In this document: piece after piece, positions 3,279-21,512 of the stretch | Layout of the letters: every line of letters begins with the position of its first letter | Numbering within the stretch: position 1 is the first letter of the stretch | NCBI GenBank assembly: GCA_005116965.1 | Contig: SWDG01000027.1 | Location: forward strand, 19,314-64,494 | Direction of reading: 5' to 3' | From: Nitrospira sp. | GTDB lineage: Bacteria; Nitrospirota; Nitrospiria; Nitrospirales; Nitrospiraceae | DNA length: 45,181 bases | Position numbers and translations under genes: made by a program | The notes under the pieces: model-generated | The model's database searches: none | Told to the model about the DNA's origin: nothing | Seen by the model: only the letters and a program-made list of their open reading frames with translations

Positions 3279-3929
3279 ATGAATTCAATGTCTCGGGGTA
3301 TAGTAATTCTCGTGCTCGCGGTCGTTGGCCTCGTAGGTAGCGCACACGAAGGGCGCTCGGCGACAGGGGGCCATCCTCGGAGTGCGACGGACCTGAAGGC
3401 CGTCCTGCGTGACCTGTGGTCGGGGCATAATTTTTGGCTTCGGAATATCGCGTTGGACAATACGACCAACAATCGCAAAGCGCTGGACTATGCCGAAAAG
3501 TCCGTGACGGCCAATGCCAGACAGATTGCAAAAGCGTTTACGCCGTTCTACGGCGAAGCGGCGTCGGAGCAGCTTTTTACTCTTTTGGTCAAACATTCTG
3601 GGGCGATCAAAGCCTATTCCGAAGCCACCGTTGCCGGAAGCAAGAGCTGGCAGGATGCGGCCAAGGCCGACTATGCTTCGAATACCGAGGAGATCGCCAC
3701 ATTCCTCAGTGAGGTCAATCGCTATCTCCCAAAGGATACGGTGCGAGGTTTGTTCGCTGTGCATGGCGCTCATCAGTTTGAGCTGATCAAGGAGTTGCAA
3801 GAAGAGGATTACGGCCACGAGGCAGAAACGTGGCAGGAGATGGAGCAACATGGCCATGCTATTGCGGATACGCTGACAACAGCATTGGAGAGGCAGTTTC
3901 CAAATAAGTTTTCTGGTCATGTTCAATGA
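3279..3929 (+). CDS. Exported helical protein of unknown function
   Basis: A 216-residue protein with a classical signal peptide (MNSMSRGIVILVLAVVGLVG..., about 28 residues) followed by an all-helical domain. The pattern LWSGHNFWLRN, near-tandem helices, and a later block AVHGAHQFELIKELQEEDY suggest two antiparallel helical halves with several histidines (H55-type WSGHNFW, VKHSG, HGAHQ). I recall similar exported proteins in Firmicutes and proteobacteria, often mis-named acetylglutamate kinase, but have no function for them. The start at 3279 is fixed by GGAGG at 3269-3273; ATG at 3267 overlaps that site. The gene stands alone between cysA and a convergent operon. Periplasmic location is inferred. 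Confidence 0.8.
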   Translation: MNSMSRGIVILVLAVVGLVGSAHEGRSATGGHPRSATDLKAVLRDLWSGHNFWLRNIALDNTTNNRKALDYAEKSVTANARQIAKAFTPFYGEAASEQLFTLLVKHSGAIKAYSEATVAGSKSWQDAAKADYASNTEEIATFLSEVNRYLPKDTVRGLFAVHGAHQFELIKELQEEDYGHEAETWQEMEQHGHAIADTLTTALERQFPNKFSGHVQ

Positions 3930-5005: not shown

Positions 5006-5827
5006 CTATTTCTTTGGCATCGGAACATACATGTCTCCGATAATCGTTTGTCCGGGAGGGGAGAGCGCAAATGCTGAAAAAGCCTCTACCAAGGCATTCG
5101 GTTCTTTTTTGGAAAGCAACAGCAGCGGGCGACGAAGGCTGTAGCGGCCATCTTTCACGGTCGGCACTTCCGGTTCAATCTTATCCATCGGCAGTAAGCG
5201 GACGGCGACGCCGTTGGAGACGGCTGAGAGGCCGGTACTCAGCGAAATATAGGCAACTGCAGAAAGGGGTGGCAGGGTGCCAACGACGGTCTTTACGACG
5301 ACCTCATCTCCGCCGAGTACTTTGGCGGCCTCAGCGATTTTGCCCGTAATCCCGAGTTGGATTTCGAAGGTGTCCCGAACGTTCTGGTTCCGTGGCCTGT
5401 CGATCAGCAGAATCTTCGTCTCCGGTCCACCCAGTTCCGACCACTCCTTGATCTTTCCCGAAAAAATGTCGGCAACTTGCTGCTTAGTCACCTCTTTGGT
5501 GAAGTTCGATAAATGGACTAAAATGCCGATTCCATCCCAACCTATCTGAGTCACCGCTAAAGCGGGATCTTCGATACCCGTGACGGCAATCTGGGCCTGG
5601 CCTGTCGTGACTAATTGCAACGGCTTGGAATTTTCCTCCCACAGGATGTCGACATAGGCACGGGGATTGGCTTTTTCAAAGGCTCGAGCCAAGGCCTCGA
5701 TGGTTGTTTGCTCCGGTCCGTTGCCGGCAATAACCAGGCTTCCAGCTGTTTGAGCGAAGGTATCGGCAGGGAATACACAGAAGATCAATCCGACGAGCAG
5801 CCCGGTTACGAACCGTCCCACGGTCAT
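5006..5827 (-). CDS. PstS-like periplasmic phosphate/anion-binding protein (orphan)
   Basis: A 273-residue periplasmic binding protein of the PstS/PBP-like superfamily. A signal peptide (GLLVGLIFCVFPADTFA) is followed by GSLVIAGNGPEQTTIEALARAFEKANP, the family's opening. The middle holds QVADIFSGKIKEWSELGGP, typical of phosphate-binding proteins, then IDRPRNQNVRDTFEIQLG. No permease or ATPase gene is nearby, so it may act as a sensor, a ligand carrier or part of a dispersed transporter. ATG 5827 gives a good signal peptide but has only a weak ribosome site; GTG 5869 would add 14 residues and lacks one. Phosphate as ligand is an inference. Confidence 0.82.
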   Translation of the reverse strand: MTVGRFVTGLLVGLIFCVFPADTFAQTAGSLVIAGNGPEQTTIEALARAFEKANPRAYVDILWEENSKPLQLVTTGQAQIAVTGIEDPALAVTQIGWDGIGILVHLSNFTKEVTKQQVADIFSGKIKEWSELGGPETKILLIDRPRNQNVRDTFEIQLGITGKIAEAAKVLGGDEVVVKTVVGTLPPLSAVAYISLSTGLSAVSNGVAVRLLPMDKIEPEVPTVKDGRYSLRRPLLLLSKKEPNALVEAFSAFALSPPGQTIIGDMYVPMPKK

Positions 5828-5882
5828 TGAGTCGCCTGTTCCCACAGGAGGTGACGACTGAGCAGGCACTGGGAGTGGCTAC

Positions 5883-6197
5883 TCAAGAAGTTGATCCTTC
5901 TGTTGGTGTGGGATCTGATTCTGAGGTGACGTTCGGCGGTGGCATGGTGCGTATGGCATTCAGCGGGGGCAACTTGGCGAAGCGCTGCATCCGCTCCTCG
6001 TTCATCGCCTTGGCTTTCAGCTCAGTAAAGCCAGGTTTGCGATCACCAGCGACAGTAGACGAAAATGAAGACATGAGTCTGGTTGCCTGGCGAGCCTGAC
6101 AGAATGGGCATTCCGTGTCTTCGACCCTGGCATACACGGACTGAGTGGCCTCGAATTGTTTCTCGCACTGTCCACAACGGTACTCGTAGAGGGGCAC
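5883..6197 (-). CDS. FmdB-family zinc-ribbon protein
   Basis: A 104-residue protein starting MPLYEYRCGQCEKQFE, the hallmark of the FmdB regulatory-protein family, with cysteines C8-C11 and C30-C33 forming a zinc ribbon. The tail from about residue 60 is low-complexity and rich in P, T, S and E, as often seen. The start is GTG at 6197, with AAAGGA nine bases upstream. FmdB was named from an amide-uptake operon, but a molecular role is not established. It is the first gene of the run down to 4083, and faces a divergent small gene across 163 bases. Confidence 0.85.
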   Translation of the reverse strand: MPLYEYRCGQCEKQFEATQSVYARVEDTECPFCQARQATRLMSSFSSTVAGDRKPGFTELKAKAMNEERMQRFAKLPPLNAIRTMPPPNVTSESDPTPTEGSTS

Positions 6198-17500: not shown

Positions 17501-18118
17501 TCAAAAGATTCTTTTATAGTGTTTCGAATGGACACCTGATTCGTCGGAGAAACCGAGAGATCCCTTGTCCGGGCTGCCGGTATCATTCAAGTCGATACGG
17601 TAGTAGCCACGAACGTGCTCCATGGCCACCTCGAAGGGAACGCCGTTCGGGTAAAGCGTCCCGGGCGCATGGGCCCCTCGTGTCAGCGTGCGGATCGTAT
17701 CTGCTTCCGCGAGTTGCTTGTCTGAAAAGATGTAGATGTCGGCAATGGTGTGATCACCCAGTTTGTGGCCGGGTGTGGTCGATGGAAGCAGTTCACCAAG
17801 GGTGCCCTTCAGGCGTGCTTGCTTGAGGCGGTTCAAGAGAGCAACGATCTGGCTATCCGTCGCTTGCGAGGGAACGATTAAGCCCAGGGTGTTCATCTCC
17901 AAGATAGTTGTCTGGACCGTAAACATGACAGGCGCGGCTTCCGGATCCTCGATGACCGAGACATTGGGCCCCTCAGTCCCGGCGGCTTGTTTGTTCCTCG
18001 AACTGGGGACGATCAGGGCCACGAACAACCAGAGTCCCATGAGGATGCCGAATACCACGAGCAGCGGATGAGCGCCGGCACGCTTTCCTTCTTCGTACGG
18101 GCCTTGATTCTTGCTCAT
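17501..18118 (-). CDS. Single-pass membrane protein of unknown function
   Basis: A 205-residue protein with a short cytoplasmic N-terminus (MSKNQGPYEEGKRAGAHP), one membrane helix (LLVVFGILMGLWLFVALIVP, about 19-38) and an extracytoplasmic domain. The latter includes VIEDPEAAPVMFTVQTTILEMNTLGLIVP, HTIADIYIFSDKQLAEADTIRTLTRG and YYRIDLNDTGS. No family recognised. ATG 18118 overlaps the mazG stop codon (ATGA), and AAGGAA lies ten bases upstream, so it is coupled to mazG. A role linked to nucleotide pool cleaning is not supported by anything beyond this neighbourhood. Confidence 0.72.
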   Translation of the reverse strand: MSKNQGPYEEGKRAGAHPLLVVFGILMGLWLFVALIVPSSRNKQAAGTEGPNVSVIEDPEAAPVMFTVQTTILEMNTLGLIVPSQATDSQIVALLNRLKQARLKGTLGELLPSTTPGHKLGDHTIADIYIFSDKQLAEADTIRTLTRGAHAPGTLYPNGVPFEVAMEHVRGYYRIDLNDTGSPDKGSLGFSDESGVHSKHYKRIF

Positions 18119-18984
18119 GGCGTGTGTTCCTTTGTGCTGGGCTGGTGTCCCTGCAATCGACGCTTCGCTGCCTCCCATAGCTCATCCATCTCAACCAGCG
18201 TCATGTCTGTCAGCGGCTTGCCCGTCTCTTCCGCTTGCGCTTCAACGAGATGAAATCGATCGATGAAGCGGTTGGTCGATCGGCGAAGCGCTTCTTCCGG
18301 GTTGACCTTCACGAAGCGGGCGAGGTTGACCAGAGAGAACAGGATATCTCCCAATTCCGCTTCAATATCGGTTTGCCTGCCGGGCTGGTTTGGGCCTGAC
18401 CCTGACTCTGCCTGAGCCAGCGCCTCCTTCAACTCGCCGACTTCTTCCGCCACTTTTCCGAAGATTTGTTCGAGGCCTGCAGCATTGTGCGGCCAATCAA
18501 ATCCGACCCGGGCGGCTCTGGCTTGTGTCTGGTAAGCCCGCAGCAAGGCCGGCAGGGTTTTCGGCACGCCGTCCAGTGCGGACTGGGTGCCGCCGGCTGC
18601 CTCGCGCTCCGCGCGTTTGATATGTTCCCATTGGTTCAAGACCTGATCGCTGTTGGTGAGGGTGCCGGTCTGGTCGCCGTTTCCAAAGACGTGGGGATGC
18701 CGCCGGACAAGTTTTTCGGCGAGGGTGTCCAGTACATCCTCTACAGTAAAGGCGCCGACTTCGGCGGCTATCTGGCTGTGGAAAATGACCTGTAGCAGCA
18801 CGTCGCCCAGCTCTTCCCGCAGCTTGGCCTGATCGCCCTGATCGATCGTCTCGAGGACTTCGTACGTTTCTTCGAGAAGGTAGGGTTTCAGTGACTCGTG
18901 CGTCTGCTTCCGATCCCACGGACAACCGTTTTGTGCGCGGAGCGCAGCCATAATCTCAACCACTTTGGTAAATCGTTCCGACAT
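18115..18984 (-). CDS. mazG: Nucleoside triphosphate pyrophosphohydrolase MazG
   Basis: Hydrolyses (d)NTPs to monophosphates plus pyrophosphate, clearing aberrant nucleotides and lowering ppGpp-related signals. The 289-residue protein has two MazG-type helical domains. The first carries CPWDRKQTHESLKPYLLEETYEVLETID and REELGDVLLQVIFHSQIA, the metal-binding EExxE/ExxD residues; the second carries VAEEVGELKEALAQ and EAELGDILFSLVNLARF. Length and order match E. coli MazG. ATG 18984 is preferred to GTG 18996; both have weak ribosome sites. Its TGA overlaps the ATG of the following membrane-protein gene. Confidence 0.95.
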   Translation of the reverse strand: MSERFTKVVEIMAALRAQNGCPWDRKQTHESLKPYLLEETYEVLETIDQGDQAKLREELGDVLLQVIFHSQIAAEVGAFTVEDVLDTLAEKLVRRHPHVFGNGDQTGTLTNSDQVLNQWEHIKRAEREAAGGTQSALDGVPKTLPALLRAYQTQARAARVGFDWPHNAAGLEQIFGKVAEEVGELKEALAQAESGSGPNQPGRQTDIEAELGDILFSLVNLARFVKVNPEEALRRSTNRFIDRFHLVEAQAEETGKPLTDMTLVEMDELWEAAKRRLQGHQPSTKEHTP

Positions 18985-19224
18985 CGGTTCCGCCACTCTA
19001 TACCGAGTGCACTTGCCGCTTCAATGGCGCTGGCGAGCTACCATGAGGACTTGACGGTAGGCGTGCATCCAGGGACAATATGCGCGGTTTGTTCTTGGTT
19101 TCTATGGGTTAGAGCGGGCAATTGCTGCGTACTAAACTATGTAGGCAGAACGTGGACAAGCTGCCCGGAACGGGAGTATACAGTCTGTCCAAGAATTGTT
19201 AGCGTTCTTTCGGAGGAGGCTCCT

Positions 19225-19683
19225 ATGGGGCTGCTCAATAGGCTGTTTGGGTTTCGCTGGAGCCTGTATGTCGTTCACAACGGCGGGTTGGCTTTCGCCA
19301 TGCACGAGCATTCCGTTATGTCCACGGTAGGCTACGTGATGTCTTACTTCGCCGCCGGCAAGGAGCCTGTCGCACCATGGGAGCTTTACCTGAATTTCAA
19401 TCACAAACACCAGACCATTAAGCTCACGCCCGCGCACTTTACCGTGGATGGAGAGAACGTTACGCCACTGCTCATTCAACAAATCGAAGCTATTGATCCG
19501 GGCTGGAAGATAAGAGGTGGAGAGCCGGTCTTTGAAGAAGCAGCAACAAAGAAGAAGCTAAAGATTAGCGACGCGCCGAGAAGTTGGTCTACTGCGGACC
19601 TCCAGGCAATGATGGACAACCTCGACAAGCCGAGGGAACTCACGTTCTTCTCGGTGATGGACATGGTCTTTGGAAAACGCTAA
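19225..19683 (+). CDS. Hypothetical protein on a putative integron-type cassette (cassette 1)
   Basis: A 152-residue protein, MGLLNRLFGFRWSLYVVHNG..., mixed alpha/beta, ending LTFFSVMDMVFGKR. GGAGGAGG (19212-19219) fixes the start. It has no recognised domain, though I recall similar short proteins from gene cassettes. GTTAGCG lies 27 bases before the start and the stop codon TAA lies inside CGCTAAC, the opening of an attC-like region. This tight packing of one gene between recombination-type sites is the cassette pattern. No promoter is visible close upstream. The function is unknown. Confidence 0.7.
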   Translation: MGLLNRLFGFRWSLYVVHNGGLAFAMHEHSVMSTVGYVMSYFAAGKEPVAPWELYLNFNHKHQTIKLTPAHFTVDGENVTPLLIQQIEAIDPGWKIRGGEPVFEEAATKKKLKISDAPRSWSTADLQAMMDNLDKPRELTFFSVMDMVFGKR

Positions 19684-19808
19684 CAAGCCACAGCTGGTGC
19701 TCGTAATTCGGAACGCGAAGCGCGTCCAGAATAAGCGGCTGCACTGGACCGTCGCTCCACAACCTCCGGTTGATCCGTACCGGGCGGTGAGCCGCGGGGC
19801 CGTTAGAT
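19678..19808 (+). other. attC-like site between two cassette genes
   Basis: The 131-bp stretch begins CGCTAAC (consensus RYYYAAC except the first base) and ends GTTAGAT, a perfect GTTRRRY core. Between them are inverted segments: GTCCAG at 19724-19729 with CTGGAC at 19744-19749, and related CRGCT boxes near each end. attC sites of 57-141 bp fold as hairpins for the integron integrase. The symmetry of the outer boxes is only partial, so this is a candidate. Confidence 0.5.
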
Positions 19809-19824
19809 TGCAGAGGGAGGTCGC

Positions 19825-20313
19825 ATGACAACTGAACCATCGAAGTTCTCCGTTTACTCTATACGCGGGCTGCCTGTACGTGTGTGGGGTGAAAGTTATG
19901 CAGTCGTAGCAGCTTTCGAGTCCGCTCCAACTGAGTTGATCACCGAATATTTTGTAATGACTAAACGGCCGAAAGAGTCTCTGAATTCCGACGCACTCAA
20001 GATCGCTGTAAGTCCGCTTCCTCCTGAACTCGGTAAAATAGATATCGAGTTTGCCTTGCGAGAAGGCTTGCGCCAAACAGAGCGTTTGCTGATGGATTTG
20101 CTGGAAGCAAGAGCTGATGAATTGTCTCGACCCGATGTAGCTTACTTGCCGTTCGAATTAAAGCCAACGAACACGGGTGATCTTCTAGGCTGCTGGATGC
20201 GCGGACAATTCAATTCTCAGCTTAAAGAAGTCCAAGCCAAGACTAAGTGTCGTCCGTTAGCCCTATATCTCGGTTTCTTGTCCAAAGTCGGCATCATCAC
20301 CCAAGCGAGCTGA
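19825..20313 (+). CDS. Hypothetical protein on a putative integron-type cassette (cassette 2)
   Basis: A 162-residue protein, MTTEPSKFSVYSIRGLPVRVW..., with a basic and helical middle (LREGLRQTERLLMDLLEARADEL) and a hydrophobic end (ALYLGFLSKVGIITQAS). No family recognised. GAGGGAGG lies upstream of the ATG. The gene begins 17 bases after the core GTTAGAT and ends seven bases before ATCTAACAATGC, again the cassette pattern. The codons seem less G/C-rich than in flanking core genes, but I did not count them. Its function cannot be inferred. Confidence 0.68.
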   Translation: MTTEPSKFSVYSIRGLPVRVWGESYAVVAAFESAPTELITEYFVMTKRPKESLNSDALKIAVSPLPPELGKIDIEFALREGLRQTERLLMDLLEARADELSRPDVAYLPFELKPTNTGDLLGCWMRGQFNSQLKEVQAKTKCRPLALYLGFLSKVGIITQAS

Positions 20314-20319
20314 CATGCA

Positions 20320-20339
20320 ATCTAACAATGCGCTCAAGC
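20320..20339 (+). other. attC half-site (R''-L'' boxes)
   Basis: ATCTAAC matches RYYYAAC exactly and is followed by a five-base spacer AATGC and the box GCTCAAGC, the standard left end of an attC site. No matching right end (GCTTGAGC-like box plus GTTRRRY) is present in the next 120 bases, so the site appears truncated. Confidence 0.6.
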
Positions 20340-20423
20340 ACGCGCCATCTTCAATGACGCAGGCGGCTGCAGGTCCGATGCATACATCAAGATAAGGCCT
20401 CGATTCCGGTCCGCACAATTGAA

Positions 20424-20452
20424 TTGAATCGTCTCCGTGGCAAGTCTACAAT
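20424..20452 (+). promoter_or_regulatory. Promoter of the toxin-antitoxin pair, giving a leaderless message
   Basis: TTGAAT (20424-20429), a 17-base spacer and TACAAT (20447-20452). The ATG at 20459 lies six bases after the -10 hexamer, at the expected transcription start. No ribosome site is present. CAATTG occurs at 20416-20421 and 20450-20455, a possible antitoxin operator. Confidence 0.6.
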
Positions 20453-20458
20453 TGCCGC

Positions 20459-20677
20459 ATGATTGATTGGTCCTCTTGCCCAGCCGTTGAGCGTGATGCG
20501 GAGCGTGTGAGTGGCGCTTGGGTTTTTCGCGGCACTCGTGTTCCTGTTACTGCCCTATTCCAGAATCTTGAAGATGGGGCACACGTCTCAGACTTTATTG
20601 TCTGGTTCCCTGGCGTCACGCTTGCGCAAGTTCGCGCAGTGCTTGAGCACGCCGCCCGCTCTCTAGAAGCGGCGTAA
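20459..20677 (+). CDS. DUF433-family antitoxin
   Basis: A 72-residue protein of the DUF433 family, the VapB-like antitoxin partner of DUF5615 PIN-type toxins. The pattern GAWVFRGTRVPVTALFQNLEDGAHVSDFIVWFPGVTLAQVRAVLEHAARSL is the family's helix-turn-helix-like core. It would bind DNA at its own promoter and neutralise the toxin. The stop TAA is directly followed by the GTG of the toxin gene. It begins at the probable transcription start without a leader. It lies just after the attC half-site, as toxin-antitoxin pairs often do in cassette arrays. Confidence 0.85.
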   Translation: MIDWSSCPAVERDAERVSGAWVFRGTRVPVTALFQNLEDGAHVSDFIVWFPGVTLAQVRAVLEHAARSLEAA

Positions 20678-20998
20678 GTGCGCGTTCTTTTCGACCAGGG
20701 TACTCCAGTCCCTCTTCGCAAGCACCTTGCAGCCCATCAGGTCACTACGACCTATGAGCTTGGTTGGAACAATCTAAAAAACGGTGAACTGCTGCAAAAA
20801 TCAGAAGAGAGCGGTTTTTCTATTCTGGTCACGACCGACCAGAATCTCCGATATCAGCAGAACCTCACTGGTCGCAAGATCGCCATTGTTGTGCTGACGA
20901 CAACCAGTTGGCCGCGCATCGAACGAGTAGTGGAAAGCGTGGCAAAGGCCGTAGATTCCGCCGCGCCAAGCAGTTATGTCGAGGTTCCAATCCCGTGA
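20678..20998 (+). CDS. DUF5615 PIN-like toxin
   Basis: A 106-residue protein of the DUF5615 family, PIN-like nucleases paired with DUF433 antitoxins. It starts MRVLFDQGTPVPLRKHLAAH with the conserved first acidic residue (FDQG), carries ELLQKSEESGFSILVTTDQNL (TTDQNL holds the second acidic site), and ends with VLTTTSWPRI. RNA cleavage is inferred from the PIN fold. The GTG start is immediately adjacent to the antitoxin stop, so translation is coupled. It is complete and probably functional. Nothing resembling a third attC follows it. Confidence 0.85.
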   Translation: MRVLFDQGTPVPLRKHLAAHQVTTTYELGWNNLKNGELLQKSEESGFSILVTTDQNLRYQQNLTGRKIAIVVLTTTSWPRIERVVESVAKAVDSAAPSSYVEVPIP

Positions 20999-21064
20999 CA
21001 GCTACTCCGGTGCTCAACGCCGCATAATACGGAATGTGACGGCCTCTTCAATCTCCATCACGGC

Positions 21065-21131: not shown

Positions 21132-21512
21132 ATGGCAGAGGAGGAGCAAGGGTTTGTCATTCGTGATCGGCGAGCTAAGGGAGGTGCCGAGGCCGCTCCG
21201 GTCGCCGCGTCGACTTCAAAACCGTCGATCTCCGCGACTTCGCCGATGGAACCAGCGCAAGCGCCTCCGGTCACCTTCTCGTCGTTTGTGATCTCATTGG
21301 GCTCGTCGTCGCTCATGCTCATGGGCGAGCAACTGGACCCGAGCCAGGCATCGATACCTGTCAACCTGCCTCAAGCCAAGGAAATCATCGATCTGTTGTC
21401 TGTCTTGGAAGACAAGACAAAAGGCAATCTGACCCCTGATGAACAGACGGTCCTGCGTGACATGCTCTATGCGCTTCGCATGAAGTACGTCACGCTGGCA
21501 TCACCGAAGTAG
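21132..21512 (+). CDS. DUF1844 domain protein
   Basis: A 126-residue cytoplasmic protein. The N-terminal 45 residues are low-complexity (A, P, S rich). The DUF1844 domain follows: VTFSSFVISLGSSSLMLMGEQ, NLPQAKEIIDLLSVLEDKTKGNLTPDEQTVLRDMLYALRMKYV, matching the family in order and length. The role of DUF1844 is not known. GGAGAAGGGAA lies before ATG 21132. It sits upstream of ntrYX, but separated by 142 bases that hold a strong promoter, so it is probably a separate unit. Confidence 0.85.
   Translation: MAEEEQGFVIRDRRAKGGAEAAPVAASTSKPSISATSPMEPAQAPPVTFSSFVISLGSSSLMLMGEQLDPSQASIPVNLPQAKEIIDLLSVLEDKTKGNLTPDEQTVLRDMLYALRMKYVTLASPK

Follow-up and report, generated by a model that had tools for sequence, protein, structure and literature searches.

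A probable relic of a chromosomal integron between mazG and a DUF1844 gene in Nitrospira

Two short genes lie between mazG and a DUF1844 gene in a chromosome of Nitrospira sp., and each is bordered by short motifs of the kind found at the ends of integron cassettes. The locus raises the question of whether these genes belong to an integron and, if so, where its integrase is and whether the array can still move. Integrons are known mostly from Proteobacteria. The window, that is, the whole stretch of 45,181 nucleotides that was analysed (G000:C12:19314-64494), belongs to a genome of 3.73 Mb that is 99% complete. From its letters an earlier note had proposed a fossil or mobilised array of two cassettes without an integrase. 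All the elements that it named were found where it had put them, whereas the attI in front of them had gone unmentioned (Table 1). The ATG of gene 1 at 19225 is preceded by GGAGGAGG, and the left half of attC2 at 20320-20339 reads ATCTAACAATGCGCTCAAGC.

Table 1. Features of the mazG-DUF1844 gap and its borders (positions in the window)
Feature	Position	Strand	Evidence
mazG, left chromosomal neighbour	18115-18996	-	Pfam MazG 5.6e-41; first ~60 nt of foreign type (identity break against closest relatives)
Promoter-like block TTGACG-17-GACAAT	19051-19079	+	Kept at left end of many occupied mazG-DUF1844 gaps
attI, ending in core G/TTAGCG	19104-19204	+	73-79% identity to DNA between intI stop codon and first cassette in relatives
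5' core GTTAGCG of cassette 1	19198-19204	+	Exact reverse complement of own R''; same core in Limnohabitans homologue
Cassette 1 gene (gene 1), 152 aa, apparently conserved cassette cargo	19225-19683	+	Homologues 67-75% identical in Betaproteobacteria
attC1, R'' CGCTAAC to R' GTTAGAT, apparently decayed and belonging to a local attC family	19678-19808	+	Family match 87% over 100 bp, E 3.6e-29
Cassette 2 gene (gene 2), 162 aa	19825-20313	+	No detectable relatives
Left half of attC2 (R'' ATCTAAC + AATGC + GCTCAAGC)	20320-20339	+	Exact reverse complement of cassette 2 core at 19802
DUF433-DUF5615 gene pair, putative toxin-antitoxin, non-cassette part of locus	20459-20998	+	Pfam hits
DUF1844 gene, right chromosomal neighbour	21132-21512	+	Pfam 7.2e-25

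The first bases of an integrated cassette are the TTRRRY portion of its attC, and a 5' core reverse-complementary to the R'' box of the same cassette is therefore expected. Both cassettes showed this relation over 7/7 bases, with GTTAGCG (19198) matching CGCTAAC (19678) in cassette 1 and GTTAGAT (19802) matching ATCTAAC (20320) in cassette 2, and in both genes the reverse complement of the 7-base core was located at most 10 bases from the stop codon. When 132 ORFs of at least 100 aa from the DNA of this genome were scanned for the same relation, only gene 2 and one spurious match were returned; the latter arose where the gene 1 frame was read from a start too far upstream, and gene 1 passes from its real start. 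In Markov shuffles the chained two-cassette core pattern was expected 0.13 times per 45 kb, and patterns resembling a single cassette appeared about 3 times per 45 kb. Such motifs are therefore common singly, which favors the explanation that chance GTT/AAC motifs surround two hypothetical genes and that there is no integron; the silence of the generic attC model (see below) points the same way. The homologies described in the following paragraphs bear against it.

Gene 1 was found outside the phylum. A scan of species genomes showed homologues in Limnohabitans (75% identity, full alignment), a Gallionellales MAG (73%), and a Rhodocyclaceae MAG (67%), and a fourth was present on a further betaproteobacterial contig. 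The Limnohabitans homologue shares with gene 1 the 5' core GTTAGCG and the R'' CGCTAAC, which overlaps the stop codon; the following gene also had a core/R'' pair, being a second cassette. The R'' box was kept in three of the four Betaproteobacterial homologues; it was followed by CCGGCAGTCAAG...GCGCCCC-type sequence in the Gallionellales copy and on the fourth contig, and no such box was present in the Rhodocyclaceae copy. Between gene 1 and its homologues the replacement differences were few (pN 0.16-0.22) and the silent ones were saturated (pS 0.75-0.83), so the gene 1 protein is under selection. Judging from its core/R'' pair and these comparisons, gene 1 appears to be a genuine integron cassette, the cargo of which is common to this genome and Betaproteobacteria. 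Of the two proteins, which had earlier been described as unknown, that of gene 1 is not an orphan, and that of gene 2 has no detectable relatives. Neither protein had a match in Pfam, NCBIfam, PHROGs, or PADLOC, and nothing useful was obtained from searches of both against plasmids, PHROGs, PADLOC, and the PDB or of gene 1 against viral contigs. The genus yielded no homologue of either gene, and accordingly none at the same position without attC sites. Run without an alignment, AlphaFold modelled gene 1 weakly (pLDDT 58), with no Foldseek match at E <= 0.001, and produced no usable model for gene 2 (pLDDT 33). The case for cassette 2 rests on its core/R'' pair and its half attC, the gene being without relatives.

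The DNA at 19104-19204 was homologous to the DNA directly 3' of the intI stop codon in four relatives (G018 C3, G022, G029, and G003), with the same G/TT core end, and it also aligned with attI in other genomes. In a fifth relative, G085, a full IntI was followed by an attI homologous to that of the window. At all of these loci intI reads toward attI, like the chromosomal integrons of Treponema (PMC3607928) and the archaeal integrons, in which attI is located just downstream of intI (PMC9668308); unlike in those systems, intI appears to have been deleted in the window, where only attI and cassettes are left. With attI ahead of the array, the locus appears to be what remains of an entire integron and not a set of scattered cassettes. 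Of the parts of a complete integron, attI is thus present and an intI next to it is absent: no trace of intI was detected between mazG and attI, and no IntI match was found within the window, as had been stated earlier. A search of the genome as a whole, 99% complete, gave no IntI match above the profile cut-off. Its best match, at C6, was an internally deleted gene in which ~32 N-terminal residues are joined to ~86 C-terminal residues, so the intI found elsewhere in the genome was a remnant.

The C6 locus (G000:C6:414700-415950; L017 9700-10950) is itself a second relic integron. Behind its intI remnant come a divergent attI, one cassette, and an attC whose R' core reads TTTAGGC, the one site of the genome that the generic attC model hit. 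A third attI of this genome was observed at G000:C12:585248-585329 (L157 3749-3830, minus strand) with no intI nearby, and its first cassette has the core GTTATGC and the R'' GCATAAC, as read from the sequence. At another locus of a relative (L021, on G022:C197, reverse strand, ~3950-220), a group II intron-like element with reverse-transcriptase-type maturase genes splits an attC that comes after a TIR-domain cassette, beside a frameshifted intI.

The remnant on C6 lends something to the explanation that an integrase acting in trans inserted the cassettes at a secondary target within the mazG promoter region, which would then never have been an integron platform. Off-target insertion by a distant IntI has been proposed as one origin of CALIN, the clusters of attC sites without an integrase (PMC8618304). 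Such an event is quite unlikely here, as it is opposed by the full attI ahead of the first cassette and by the intact intI or intI pieces present in the same gap of other genomes.

With a length of 131 bp, attC1 was decayed and atypical, and its part at ~19690-19808 belongs to a sequence family with matches in 20/76 genomes. In the circular form, the outer R''/R' stem and the inner stems of attC1 folded with z -2.4 against shuffles, and the linear fold was no better than shuffles (z about -1). An intact copy of the family, also in circular form, had a perfect 19-bp outer stem with z -8.3 against shuffles. Unlike classical attC sites, the intact units of this family consist of a perfect 19-bp R''L''/L'R' stem without an unpaired spacer. 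In G018 and G085, the family forms a gene-less unit of ~150 bp directly after attI or attC, followed by other cassettes. These units resemble the ORF-less gene cassettes (PMC6557892); in the window, by contrast, the sequence is the attC of a cassette that carries a gene. Gene-less units were observed at L164 (reverse, 3543-3725 and 5756-5938), L147 (reverse, 1432-1614), L158 (reverse, 5065-5247), and L025 (10710-10892), and they stand in front of differing cassettes. Because the sequence 3' of R'' in the Betaproteobacterial homologues differs from attC1, the site seems to have kept the R'' of its cassette, the remainder being of the local attC family. For attC2, no complementary right arm and no GTTRRRY were found downstream before 20458.

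The generic attC covariance model, built from 15 attCs (12 from plasmid integrons and three from G083), found the plasmid and G083 attCs and had no hit at attC1 or attC2. Nominally, this is one of the two outcomes that the earlier note had named as counting against its reading, but the miss at attC1 is not decisive, because the model is weak on attCs of this length and also misses the full 131-bp attC of the blaIMP cassette in L143, although it had been trained on a shortened form of that site. With Rfam, too, no attC-type hit was obtained in the window. A home-made scan for R''/R' arm complementarity found the classical plasmid attCs and few in the related loci, since the cores there vary beyond GTTRRRY.

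The mazG and DUF1844 genes were divergent neighbours in 68/79 genomes. The gap between them measured 104-162 bp in 36 genomes, 207-340 bp in five, and 0.7-11.9 kb in 27, and with one further occupied gap that is split by contig ends (G030), 28 gaps were occupied. The mazG-DUF1844 gap is thus an insertion hotspot across the genus. A recognisable integron part was present in about 12 of the 28 occupied gaps. In G083, the 12-kb gap contained an intact, co-oriented IntI of 404 aa and an array in which the attC model scored four hits, three of them on sequences from its own training set. Pieces of intI were found in the gaps of G066, G100, G101, G016, and G030, an attI in that of G098, attC model hits of varying strength in those of G017, G018, G001, and others, and attC1-family members in those of G030, G100, G027, and G018. 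These integron parts at the same site, together with the attI homology, the homologous cassette of another phylum with the same core and R'', and the attC family match, refute the explanation by chance motifs, which is left with next to no probability.

The closest relatives by mazG (G068, G102, and G088) had an empty gap. Compared with them, the mazG of the window was 88-98% identical over most of its length, ~70% identical in the first 60 nt, and 40% identical upstream. From this break it follows that the block probably arrived together with a foreign mazG 5' end via homologous recombination. The DUF433-DUF5615 pair (20363-21015) was shared, at 82-90% DNA identity, with eight other occupied gaps whose content otherwise differed. 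Its reading as a third cassette was dropped, as its edges are without att cores; one may speculate that it helps hold the block in place. A mazG promoter element (TTGAAG-16-TATA type, minus strand) was observed at 18998-19024 and 21024-21051. In the window and in G098 the insert carries it at either end, and most occupied gaps have it at the left end only. The second copy at the right end had brought up the idea that the whole block is one site-specific element, which was rejected because most occupied gaps lack this copy and the break in mazG points to homologous recombination.

The locus is very probably the remnant of a chromosomal integron that stood at a genus-wide site and lost its intI, leaving attI and the cassettes, with one decayed and one half attC, to be inherited as ordinary genes. 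The fossil cassette array without an integrase that had been proposed earlier is accordingly supported by the evidence. Against this reading count the silence of the generic attC model at both sites, the length and atypical form of attC1 and its difference after R'' from the Betaproteobacterial attC, the half attC and relative-less gene of cassette 2, and the lack of an intI trace between mazG and attI. In the proposed order of events, the mazG-DUF1844 intergenic region would be an old chromosomal integron site of the genus, and the integrase gene would have been deleted in an ancestor or donor of the locus of this species. The deletion would have left the promoter-like block, attI, cassette 1 with its decayed attC, and cassette 2 with its half attC, followed by the putative toxin-antitoxin pair, and the locus probably entered the lineage by the recombination that brought the divergent mazG 5' end. 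The promoter-like block, ~150 bp upstream of gene 1, could transcribe the array.

In another reading the array is dormant rather than fossil, with an integrase of another replicon or of a related strain acting at times on attI. In its favor, the sequences of attI and of the two 5' cores are intact, three sites with attI plus cassette persist in the genome, and gene 1 is shared across phyla. Continued mobility of this kind is nevertheless unlikely, given that the 99% complete genome has no intact IntI, that the stem of attC1 is decayed, and that the right half of attC2 is missing. An immobile array that is passed on by inheritance alone is the likeliest state; as a relic, it would no longer gain or lose cassettes via an integrase of its own and would persist as ordinary inherited genes.

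Two CALIN have been reported in Candidatus Nitrospira inopinata (IntegronFinder 2.0, PMC9024848). The window resembles them in having cassettes with attC-type ends and no nearby integrase, probably in the same genus. It differs in keeping an attI before the array and in occupying a site that can be traced across the genus, and its attCs are decayed or cut, so that with the home-made 15-sequence model it lies outside the usual definition of CALIN (IntegronFinder 2: at least two attC model hits, no integrase). Clusters of attC without an integrase were thus already known in Nitrospira, and the main interest lies in the history of one integron site across the genus. Tentatively, the gap can be regarded as the ancestral integron site of the genus. 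Its integrons would combine a co-oriented intI with attCs of a distinctive family, in which the stems are perfect and have no unpaired spacers and which also spreads in the form of gene-less cassettes. Through repeated intI loss and through exchange by homologous recombination, the gap may have become a shared, frozen site of accessory genes.

A decayed array led by an attI implies that relic integrons are undercounted by standard attC searches, and a cassette in common with freshwater Betaproteobacteria shows exchange across phyla. With one chromosomal site found in empty, intact, and ruined states across the genus, the gain, decay, and exchange of integrons become directly traceable in Nitrospira.
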